The position numbers were made by a program, and so were the translations under genes. Below are positions 18,653-21,603 of a stretch of 64,000 nucleotides of DNA, in pieces; position 1 is the first letter of the stretch, and each line of letters begins with the position of its first letter. Origin of the DNA: Roseobacter fucihabitans (lineage in GTDB: Bacteria > Pseudomonadota > Alphaproteobacteria > Rhodobacterales > Rhodobacteraceae); NCBI RefSeq assembly GCF_014337925.2, contig NZ_CP143423.1, forward strand, positions 2,138,501 to 2,202,500. Reading direction: 5' to 3'. The notes below the pieces were generated by a model. That model was not told where the DNA came from, made no database searches, and saw only the letters and a list, made by a program, of their open reading frames with translations.

Positions 18653-19438
18653 TTACAAGGCCGTCCAGCCGCCATCTACGCTGATTGTCGTACCAGTGAT
18701 CTGCGCCGCAGCATCCGAGCACAGAAACGTCGCCGTGCCGCCCATCTGCTCCACCGTGGCGAATTCCTTGGAGGGCTGGCGCGTCAGCATGACGTTCTCG
18801 ATGACCTCCTCGCGGGTCATGTCATATTCCTTCATCGTATCGGGGATCTGCTTTTCCACAATCGGCGTCAATACATAACCTGGACAGATCGCATTGGCGG
18901 TGATCGGCTCCTTGGCGGTCTCAAGCGCGGTGGTTTTGGTCAGCCCGACCACCCCGTGCTTGGCTGCGATATAGGCGGATTTATAGGGCGAAGCCGTCAA
19001 CCCATGCGCGGAGGCAATATTGATCACCCGCCCCCACCCGGCCGCACGCATCATCGGCAAGGCGATGGCGGTGGTATGAAACGCCGAGGACATATTGATT
19101 GCGATGATCGCGTCCCATTTTTCCACCGGGAAATCGGGGATCGCGGCCACGTGCTGAATACCGGCGTTATTCACCAGAATGTCGCATTTGCCCGCATCCT
19201 CGATCAGGCGGCGACATTGATCGCCCTTGGACATATCGGCCTGAATGTAGCGAACGTTGACACCGGTTTCCTGCGCCATTTCCTTGGCGAGCGCGTGATC
19301 CTCTGCGGCATCGGTGAAGGAATTGAGCACGATATCGGCCCCCGCGCGGGCCAACTCCCAGGCAATGCCCAACCCGATCCCGGAGTTTGATCCGGTGATG
19401 ACGGCGGTTTTTCCGCTCAATGAAATCTCATATGCCAT
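18653..19438 (-). CDS. bdhA: 3-hydroxybutyrate dehydrogenase
   Basis: A 261-residue short-chain dehydrogenase that oxidises D-3-hydroxybutyrate to acetoacetate with NAD+ during polyhydroxybutyrate use. It shows TGSNSGIG for cofactor, NNAG, and the Ser143-Tyr156-Lys160 catalytic set (IASAHG, YKSAYIAAK). The segment QIPDTMKEYDMTREEVIENVMLTRQPSKEF is typical of bacterial BdhA. The start has an excellent AAGGAG site six bases upstream. It is followed by the patatin gene. The upstream region has TGC-rich stretches that might bind PhaR. Confidence 0.95.
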   Translation of the reverse strand: MAYEISLSGKTAVITGSNSGIGLGIAWELARAGADIVLNSFTDAAEDHALAKEMAQETGVNVRYIQADMSKGDQCRRLIEDAGKCDILVNNAGIQHVAAIPDFPVEKWDAIIAINMSSAFHTTAIALPMMRAAGWGRVINIASAHGLTASPYKSAYIAAKHGVVGLTKTTALETAKEPITANAICPGYVLTPIVEKQIPDTMKEYDMTREEVIENVMLTRQPSKEFATVEQMGGTATFLCSDAAAQITGTTISVDGGWTAL

Positions 19439-19595: not shown

Positions 19596-19671
19596 AAAAA
19601 AAACGCCTGCACAAGGCAGGCGTTAAGTTATTGAGGCAGGTTTCATACAGGCAAGAAACCTATCGAGCAGT
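19596..19671 (-). ncRNA. Candidate small regulatory RNA
   Basis: On the minus strand a sigma-70-like promoter (19706-19678) would start a transcript near 19671. The RNA of about 76 nt would hold a 7-bp hairpin (AGGTTTC at 19661-19655 on the minus strand pairing with GAAACCT at 19644-19638, ten-base loop) and end at a perfect 9-bp terminator hairpin with a run of eight U. There is no minus-strand coding sequence between this terminator and the plus-strand gene at 19786. The layout (promoter, hairpin, single-stranded stretch, terminator) is that of a trans-acting sRNA, possibly Hfq-bound since hfq is present. I do not recognise an Rfam family. Confidence 0.6.
19602..19624 (-). terminator. Intrinsic terminator of the candidate sRNA
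   Basis: AACGCCTGC (19602-19610), loop ACAAG, GCAGGCGTT (19616-19624): a perfect 9-bp stem. On the minus strand it is followed by an uninterrupted T8 tract (plus-strand A at 19596-19603), the hallmark of a Rho-independent terminator. The plus-strand side has only a weak T content, so it works on the minus strand. Confidence 0.8.
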
Positions 19672-19677
19672 GAGATC

Positions 19678-19706
19678 GTTATAAGCAATCTGGCGCCGCT
19701 GGCCAA
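19678..19706 (-). promoter_or_regulatory. Sigma-70-like promoter of the candidate sRNA
   Basis: Minus strand: -35 TTGGCC (19706-19701), 17-base spacer, -10 TATAAC (19683-19678). The spacing is ideal and the hexamers match the consensus TTGACA/TATAAT at four and five positions. It points to the hairpin-terminator unit downstream and to no coding gene. Confidence 0.55.
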
Positions 19707-19785
19707 GCTAAAAGTTTGATAAGATGTAAATACCTCGGTACGCTGGCGTTCAAGAAAACAAGGCACGCAGGGGATTGTCGCTAAA

Positions 19786-21603
19786 ATGGGTACTGATTTT
19801 TTCCGCCACTTCACGCGGATTTTGACGCCATGCGTCGCGATTCTGTGGATCACAAGTGCTGCGGCCGAGCCCCAACACGGGATATCTATGTATGGGACCC
19901 CCGACTTGCCACCTGATTTTGTGTCGCTCCCCTACGTTTGGGCGGACGCCCCCAAGGGTGGCAATATTACGCTGGGCAACACCGGCGGCTTTGACAGCCT
20001 GAACCCATTTGTGCGCAAAGGGACGGTGCCGTGGCAGCTCAGTTTCCTGACCCATGAGAGCCTGATGGGACGGTCCTGGGAAGAACCTTTCACGCTTTAC
20101 GGGCTTTTGGCCGAATCGGTTGAGGTGGCCCCGGACCGCTCCTGGGTCACCTTCACGCTGCGCGAAGGCGCGCAATTCTCGGATGGCTCCCCTGTGACGG
20201 TGGAGGATGTGATCTTCACCTATGACCTGCTCGCCACGCAAGGCCATCCGAAATACCACAGCCTGGCCGCCCAGATCGAGCAGATCACAAAAACCGGGCC
20301 GCGCACATTGCGCATTGATTTCAACACTGAAAATCGCGAATTGGCTCTGCTGGCAGGCATGCGGCCTATCCTGAGCCGCGCGCAATGGGAGGGTCGCGAT
20401 TTTGCCAATGCACCGCTGGCTGAAATTCCCCTTGGCACCGGCCCTTATACGGTGACCGATTATGAAGCCGGGCGTTTCGTGCAACTGATCCGCAACCCCG
20501 ACTATTGGGGGGCGGACATCCCGTTTCGCCGCGGCACCCACAATCTGGATGGAATCAAGCTGGATTTCTATGGCGATGCCTCGGTGATGTTTGAGGCCTT
20601 CAAAGGCGGTGATATCTCTGCTCTGCGCGAATTCAACGCGGAAAAATGGGCAACCCAATATGATTTCCCGGCCATCGACCGGGGCGATATGGTGAAATCG
20701 GAAATTCCCCATCAAAAGCCATCCGGTATGACCGGCTTCGTAATGAACACACGTAACGCGCCCTTTGACGATTGGCGCCTGCGCGAGGCACTGATCCAGG
20801 CGTTCAATTTCGAGTACATCAATGACACGCTGACGGGCGGGGCGCAGCCGCGGATCACATCATATTTTTCCAACTCCACACTGGCGATGAAACCGGGTCC
20901 TGCGCAAGGGGCCGTGGCGGCCTTGCTTACGCCTTTTGCGTCCGATCTGTTGCCCGGCACCTTGGAGGGGTATGCGTTGCCTCAATCGGATGGGTCCGCG
21001 CGCAATCGCAAGGGCATCCGCACGGCTCTTGCGCTTCTGGCGGAGGCCGGATGGACGCCGAAGGACGGTGTGATGCGCAACGCGGAGGGGCAGCCGCTCG
21101 CCTTTACCATCCTGTTGGCACAAAACAGCAGCGAAAACATCGCCATTGCCGATCTTTATCTTTCGGCCCTCACCCGCCTGGGTATTGATGTGACGATTGA
21201 GACCACCGACAGCGCGCAATATACCGCGCGCACCAATGCATTTGATTTCGACATGACCCTTTATCGGCGCGCTTTGTCCCTGTCGCCGGGCAATGAACAG
21301 AGGTTCTATTGGGGGTCGGAAGCCGCCGATCAACCGGGATCGCGCAATTGGATGGGTGTGAAATCGCCTGCGGTGGACGGTATGATCGATGCGATGCTCT
21401 CTGCCAAGGATGAGGCGGATTTTAACGCCGCCGTGCGCGCATTGGACCGGGTGCTGACGGCGGGGCGCTATGTGATTCCGTTCTGGCAATTCACCACCGG
21501 TCAGATCGCGCATATCAAGGCGTTGAAATACCCCGATACCTTGCCGATTTACGGCGACGGTCCGAACTTCATGCCAGAGGTGTGGTGGTACGATCCCTCC
21601 TGA
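19786..21603 (+). CDS. ABC transporter solute-binding protein, family 5 (oligopeptide/YejA-type)
   Basis: A 605-residue periplasmic binding protein with a Sec signal (cleavage near SAAA-EPQHG). It has the family 5 pattern VTFTLREGAQFSDGSPVTVEDVIFTYDLL, LGTGPYTVTDYEAGRFVQLIRNPDYWG, and the C-terminal FYWGSEAAD...SRNWMGVKSP, typical of YejA-like peptide binders. Its role is to deliver peptides or similar solutes to an inner-membrane ABC permease. No permease or ATPase gene adjoins, so it is an orphan here and must pair with a transporter elsewhere. It is convergent with the HTH-cupin regulator. Confidence 0.9.
   Translation: MGTDFFRHFTRILTPCVAILWITSAAAEPQHGISMYGTPDLPPDFVSLPYVWADAPKGGNITLGNTGGFDSLNPFVRKGTVPWQLSFLTHESLMGRSWEEPFTLYGLLAESVEVAPDRSWVTFTLREGAQFSDGSPVTVEDVIFTYDLLATQGHPKYHSLAAQIEQITKTGPRTLRIDFNTENRELALLAGMRPILSRAQWEGRDFANAPLAEIPLGTGPYTVTDYEAGRFVQLIRNPDYWGADIPFRRGTHNLDGIKLDFYGDASVMFEAFKGGDISALREFNAEKWATQYDFPAIDRGDMVKSEIPHQKPSGMTGFVMNTRNAPFDDWRLREALIQAFNFEYINDTLTGGAQPRITSYFSNSTLAMKPGPAQGAVAALLTPFASDLLPGTLEGYALPQSDGSARNRKGIRTALALLAEAGWTPKDGVMRNAEGQPLAFTILLAQNSSENIAIADLYLSALTRLGIDVTIETTDSAQYTARTNAFDFDMTLYRRALSLSPGNEQRFYWGSEAADQPGSRNWMGVKSPAVDGMIDAMLSAKDEADFNAAVRALDRVLTAGRYVIPFWQFTTGQIAHIKALKYPDTLPIYGDGPNFMPEVWWYDPS

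Follow-up and report, generated by a model that had tools for sequence, protein, structure and literature searches.

Comparative sequence evidence suggests that the small RNA (sRNA) gene described here, from Roseobacter fucihabitans, likely encodes a trans-acting regulator that is universal in the Rhodobacteraceae and has as its main conserved target the 5' leader of the division/cell-wall (dcw, or mraZ) operon together with UpsM. The gene lies on the minus strand of the window, by which we mean the whole 64,000-nucleotide stretch of DNA that was analyzed. Conservation across the family indicates that it is a real small-RNA gene, not a chance arrangement of promoter, hairpin and terminator.

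Structure and genomic context of the sRNA gene

An initial annotation had placed a promoter-hairpin-terminator unit at 19706-19596 of the minus strand, and direct reading of that strand confirmed these coordinates. From promoter to terminator the strand reads ...TTATCAAACTTTTAGCTTGGCC-(17)-TATAACGATCTC|ACTGCTCGATAGGTTTCTTGCCTGTATGAAACCTGCCTCAATAACTTAACGCCTGCCTTGTGCAGGCGTTTTTTTT. The promoter elements and their 17-nt spacer, a predicted RNA of 76 nt running from a likely +1 at A19671 to T19596, and the succession of a 7-bp hairpin (AGGUUUC/GAAACCU), a single-stranded stretch and a terminator were all as described there; TTGCCTGTATGAAACC is a stretch of the sRNA sequence. The features of the locus are as follows, with their evidence in parentheses.

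19701..19706, minus strand: -35 element TTGGCC (sequence; column conservation; family consensus TTGGAC)
19678..19683, minus strand: -10 element TATAAC, 17-nt spacer (sequence; TATAA columns 82-96% conserved; family consensus TATAAA)
19596..19671, minus strand: sRNA of 76 nt with a predicted +1 at 19671, present once in the genome (A19671 is the first invariant position; orthologues; fold z)
19632..19671, minus strand: invariant 40-nt core ACUGCUCGAUAGGUUUCUUGCCUGUAUGAAACCUGCCUCA (alignment of 69 distinct sequences)
19638..19661, minus strand: 5' hairpin AGGUUUC / GAAACCU with 10-nt loop UUGCCUGUAU (7 pairs, no variation)
19636..19652, minus strand: segment GCCUGUAUGAAACCUGC, made up of the loop and the 3' arm and proposed to pair with the target (dcw leaders contain its complement, AGGTTTCATACAGGC / TTCATACAGGC)
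19664..19670, minus strand: CUGCUCG at the RNA 5' end, possibly a second segment that pairs (complement CGAGCAG in dcw leaders)
19596..19624, minus strand: intrinsic terminator AACGCCUGC-CUUGU-GCAGGCGUU plus U tail (terminator scan; compensatory changes)
19703..19718, minus strand: conserved box CAAACTTTTAGCTTGG, overlapping the -35 element (imperfect dyad CAAACT-TTT-AGCTTG; columns 78-97% conserved over 97 family loci)
18653..19438, minus strand: bdhA, 3-hydroxybutyrate dehydrogenase, context (TIGR01963, 357.8 bits)
19786..21603, plus strand: divergent ABC-transporter solute-binding protein (SBP) gene, context (weak matches to oligopeptide/nickel SBP families)

None of 200 shuffled sequences folded as well as the RNA (z = -3.8), whose predicted fold has the 7-bp hairpin, with its loop of 10 nt, joined by a linker to the 9-bp terminator. 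A 9-bp terminator stem had been reported along with a full run of eight T; the stem is present, but it consumes two of the T's, and the element is counted either as seven GC-rich pairs followed by eight T or as nine pairs followed by six. Its stem is the longest among the 12 terminator matches in 6 kb. Because its -10 element, TATAAC, does not end in T, the promoter was not listed by a scan for the strict sigma-70 consensus.

The initial annotation had regarded the unit as an orphan. That term calls for a caveat: bdhA lies 157 nt downstream on the strand of the sRNA, and the SBP-sRNA-bdhA neighborhood is fixed. The locus is syntenic in this arrangement, with the SBP gene divergent upstream in 202 of 214 loci and bdhA downstream, on the strand of the sRNA, in 165 of the 214; bdhA was not detected in the other 49.

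Searches of Rfam with gathering and relaxed thresholds returned sub-threshold matches only. The initial annotation had recognized no known RNA family in the unit, and no Rfam family reaches its gathering score. The neighboring bdhA, a gene of polyhydroxybutyrate (PHB) degradation, had prompted a comparison with the MmgR/suhB RNA (alpha-r8, RF00519), which is also an alphaproteobacterial two-hairpin sRNA and has been linked to polyhydroxybutyrate; it was rejected on its score of 20.7 bits against a gathering threshold of 41, which gives no evidence of homology. Hrs13 (RF02631; 24.2 versus 52 bits) and BjrC1505 (RF02356; 27.4 versus 50 bits), both of which resemble the sRNA in their general two-hairpin architecture and terminator, likewise fell short of their curated thresholds. 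No coordinate listed for the RT-PCR-supported sRNAs of Paracoccus denitrificans coincides with that of the sRNA, but this comparison is uninformative, as the genome compared may be that of another strain (PMC5107571).

Distribution and conservation

A blastn search recovered the sRNA from each of the 19 genomes of its genus and from all remaining family members in the set of relatives, and no match was obtained in 24 genomes from other families. Orthologues, almost always single-copy, were identified in 193 of the 198 genera of the Rhodobacteraceae and in 124 of the 125 genomes of Paracoccus. When a covariance model was run against 289 genomes of the class, strong matches were confined to the four listed family members; five weaker matches (E about 1e-4, in five genomes) turned out on inspection to be unrelated terminators. 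These searches point to no convincing relative outside the Rhodobacteraceae.

Across 69 distinct transcript sequences, nucleotides 1-40 are identical save for one T19A in a single sequence. The major base accounts on average for a fraction of 1.00 at nt 1-40, 0.84 at nt 41-76 and 0.35, which equals background, right after the terminator. The initial annotation had tied its candidate sRNA to conservation in close relatives, and promoter, hairpin and terminator proved to be kept family-wide; this comparative evidence, together with the Rfam result, supports the sRNA reading. Covariation, for which a test of both stems had been suggested, is found in the terminator, where six of the nine pairs carry two-sided changes and 98.4% of cells are paired, but not in the 5' hairpin, which never varies and whose conservation therefore reflects fixed sequence and not structure alone. 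Within the promoter, TTGG at -35 and TATAA at -10 are conserved to 82-97% per column, and the columns of the upstream box CAAACTTTTAGC to 78-95%.

The strongly conserved dyad that overlaps the -35 element occupies the region that separates the sRNA gene from the divergent SBP gene, and may be the site of a regulator or an UP-like element; a regulon search found a single other exact copy in the genome.

Complementarity to the dcw leader

The initial annotation had named no target for its candidate sRNA. The target analysis covered 50 mraZ leaders, one per genus. The sRNA stretch GCCUGUAUGAAACCU matches the leader stretch AGGUUUCAUACAGGC, which lies about 160-245 nt upstream of mraZ. In the genome of the window, the dcw leader carries GCAGGTTCATACAGGC, the complement of GCCTGTATGAAACCTGC in the sRNA with one bulge; the leader stretch in the proposed pairing is CAUACAGG. 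An exact 11-mer complement, TTCATACAGGC (UUCAUACAGGC), is present in 41 of the 50 leaders as against 0.1% in shuffled leaders, and the exact 15-mer complement AGGTTTCATACAGGC in 27; they begin 159-245 nt before the match to the mraZ profile. A helix search located the best sRNA pairing at the same leader segment in nearly all leaders, and the loop-binding part of the site has a mean unpaired probability of 0.68 compared with 0.42 for the whole leader, being higher in 41 of 41 cases. A second element complementary to the 5' end of the sRNA, CGAGCAG, occurs in 40 of the 50. The search for targets across whole genomes used a single 11-mer. In same-genus relatives this 11-mer recurs at the sRNA gene and at the mraZ leader, and three of these Roseobacter genomes (G002, G004 and G009) contain it nowhere else.

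Binding energies calculated with ViennaRNA duplexfold were not discriminating, unrelated stretches scoring lower, because the RNA is GC-rich; duplexfold was replaced by site conservation, the helix search and cofold with shuffles. Cofold binding was better than that of the shuffled sRNA in five of nine genomes (G034, G082, G020, G113 and G088; z from -3.8 to -7.1). For R. sphaeroides it was no better than shuffles, which is due in part to a G-U pair in the UpsM site.

A hairpin-embedded block of the dcw leader, GCGCGAGCGAGCAGACATCCCCCCAG, is nearly invariant across genera (leader L220 and other mraZ leaders), and GAGCAGACATCCCCC is found in 36 of 50 leaders; the conservation of GCGCGAGCGAGCAGACATCCCCCCAG exceeds what pairing with the sRNA needs.

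The pairing site is absent from the dcw leaders of two genomes, G026 and G071 (leaders L254 and L232), in both of which the sRNA core is still invariant (for G026, in L082). The dcw target thus cannot explain all of the constraint on the core, which suggests that the sRNA has further conserved targets or constraints.

In R. sphaeroides, UpsM is an sRNA that originates in the dcw (mraZ) 5' leader and ends within it (PMC8307010, PMC5089854, PMC8625941); its cleavage shortens it from 206 to about 130 nt. In strain 2.4.1 (G093), the proposed pairing site is at 694,689-694,705. The position at which RNase E has been published to cut UpsM, 694,720 (PMC6238624), falls between the two leader elements that are complementary to the sRNA. 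The mraZ start codon is GTG, in agreement with PMC5089854. Pairing with the sRNA may alter cleavage of UpsM at this RNase E site. The circuit proposed here is the same UpsM/dcw-leader circuit, family-wide in the Rhodobacteraceae; UpsM (RSs0682) is the proposed target and comes from the mraZ 5' UTR, whereas the window sRNA is an independent gene located elsewhere.

Relationship to StsR

UpsM and the dcw leader are bound by a known sRNA, StsR, for which rpoE is another target. StsR (RSs0827) is a 72-nt, RpoHI/RpoHII-dependent sRNA of R. sphaeroides (PMC8307010); it pairs with UpsM as well as with the 5' UTR of dcw, and it stimulates cleavage by RNase E (PMC8307010, PMC8625941). The window sRNA resembles it in being a small RNA of the Rhodobacteraceae (72 nt for StsR and a predicted 76 nt here) that is complementary to the dcw leader and to UpsM. 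The R. sphaeroides orthologue (L083) is predicted at 72-76 nt, depending on the point in the U tail at which transcription ends. On the strength of the UpsM complementarity, the window sRNA had at first been assigned as the Roseobacter orthologue of StsR. That assignment was cast into doubt by a calibration of RSs numbers and by another RNA encoded at 858 kb.

The RSs numbers used for the calibration include those of PcrZ and SorX. RSs0682, RSs1543, RSs1624, RSs2430 and RSs2461 lie at 694.7, 1632.6, 1724.5, 2565.8 and 2598.2 kb, respectively (PMC6238624, PMC5036791), and the numbers rise linearly with position at 0.88-0.96 per kb. StsR (RSs0827) is thereby placed near 850 kb on chromosome 1, whereas the orthologue of the window sRNA lies at 1,443,996-1,444,071 (about 1,444 kb); the calibration carries the caveat that chromosome 2 is also numbered (RSs0019 is found there), and the window sRNA is not on chromosome 2. 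The promoter of the window sRNA looks housekeeping-like: set against the RpoHI consensus (PMC3441632) it has CTTG at -35, but its -10 element, TATAAA or TATAAG, lacks the T at -9 that has been reported as critical for RpoHI (PMC3441632).

The 858-kb RNA is encoded at 858,040-858,145 on the plus strand of R. sphaeroides chromosome 1 (L280:8040-8145), with a match in the genome of the window at G000:C1:960130-960178. This different conserved RNA has the core TTCACTGTCCCTCGTTCCGC, an RpoH-like promoter and -10 element and a terminator, and is present in 89 of 120 genera. It too complements the leader: the complement of its core, GGGACGAGGG or GGGACAG, occurs in 39 of 50 leaders as against 9.6% in shuffles, and lies near the dcw leader terminator. 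RNAs of this type were not found in G026 and G071. The predicted length of the 858-kb RNA, however, exceeds the 72 nt of StsR. Since interpolation places StsR near 850 kb, where another conserved leader-complementary sRNA exists, we judge it unlikely that the window sRNA is the StsR orthologue and have good confidence that it is not. Most simply, the 858-kb RNA, which fits StsR better, is probably StsR itself, and the window sRNA is probably a further sRNA directed at this leader.

Other readings of the locus

With bdhA situated 157 nt downstream on the same strand, an arrangement kept in 165 of 214 loci, the unit could instead be read as the 5' leader or attenuator of that gene, with transcripts that start at 19671 and mostly end at 19596 and an element that controls read-through into bdhA. 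We consider this very improbable. Conservation is at background (0.35 major-base fraction) immediately past the terminator, bdhA is not detected downstream in 49 of the 214 loci, and the arms of the terminator are free to change as long as their pairs compensate, whereas the core does not change, so that no conserved antiterminator can form between arms and core. Neither the alignment past the terminator nor the 214 loci revealed any conserved sequence, or any alternative structure, by which the element would be tied to bdhA. A short leader peptide (AUG AAA CCU GCC UCA AUA ACU UAA, MKPASIT) is hardly credible, for although most loci contain the in-frame ATG-to-stop, AAA CCU GCC UCA has undergone zero synonymous changes over 97 loci and is directly followed by frameshifts and read-through, and the upstream hairpin has no evident ribosome-binding site.

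Proposed mechanism and significance

The preferred reading remains that of a trans-acting sRNA directed at the dcw leader. The RNA has its own promoter, an intrinsic terminator and no ORF, and it has a conserved, predicted-accessible pairing segment with a conserved target site. In the mechanism that we propose, the hairpin loop UUGCCUGUAU would make first contact with the exposed leader segment AUACAGGC, after which the 3' arm would undergo strand exchange and the duplex would grow to about 15-17 bp. The 5' end of the sRNA, CUGCUCG, may dock on CGAGCAG further down the leader. Pairing would remodel the 5' domain of the leader around the known RNase E site, and this remodeling would shift cleavage and read-through into the division genes. 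We infer that the sRNA is expressed, that it depends on Hfq, that it pairs with the leader in cells and that RNase E is involved; by analogy with StsR, the effect would be lower dcw expression.

We hold it about evenly balanced that the dcw leader is a two-input hub, at which StsR would act on one site under stress and in stationary phase, and the nearly invariant sRNA with its housekeeping-type promoter on a second, at the RNase E position, the two jointly setting read-through into the division genes.

For a base-pairing sRNA it is unusual that 40 nt stay fixed over about 200 genera, and Rfam has no entry for the family. A trans-acting sRNA that pairs with an mRNA leader is a known kind of regulator, and there is a fair chance that the sRNA is an unrecognized second regulator of the division operon. 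The exact pairing between sRNA and leader that would have to be mutated is now defined, and the analysis yields a family model together with coordinates in R. sphaeroides, where StsR-UpsM genetics already exist. If the sRNA does act on the dcw leader, the whole family would control its division operon through small RNAs that meet on one mRNA leader.
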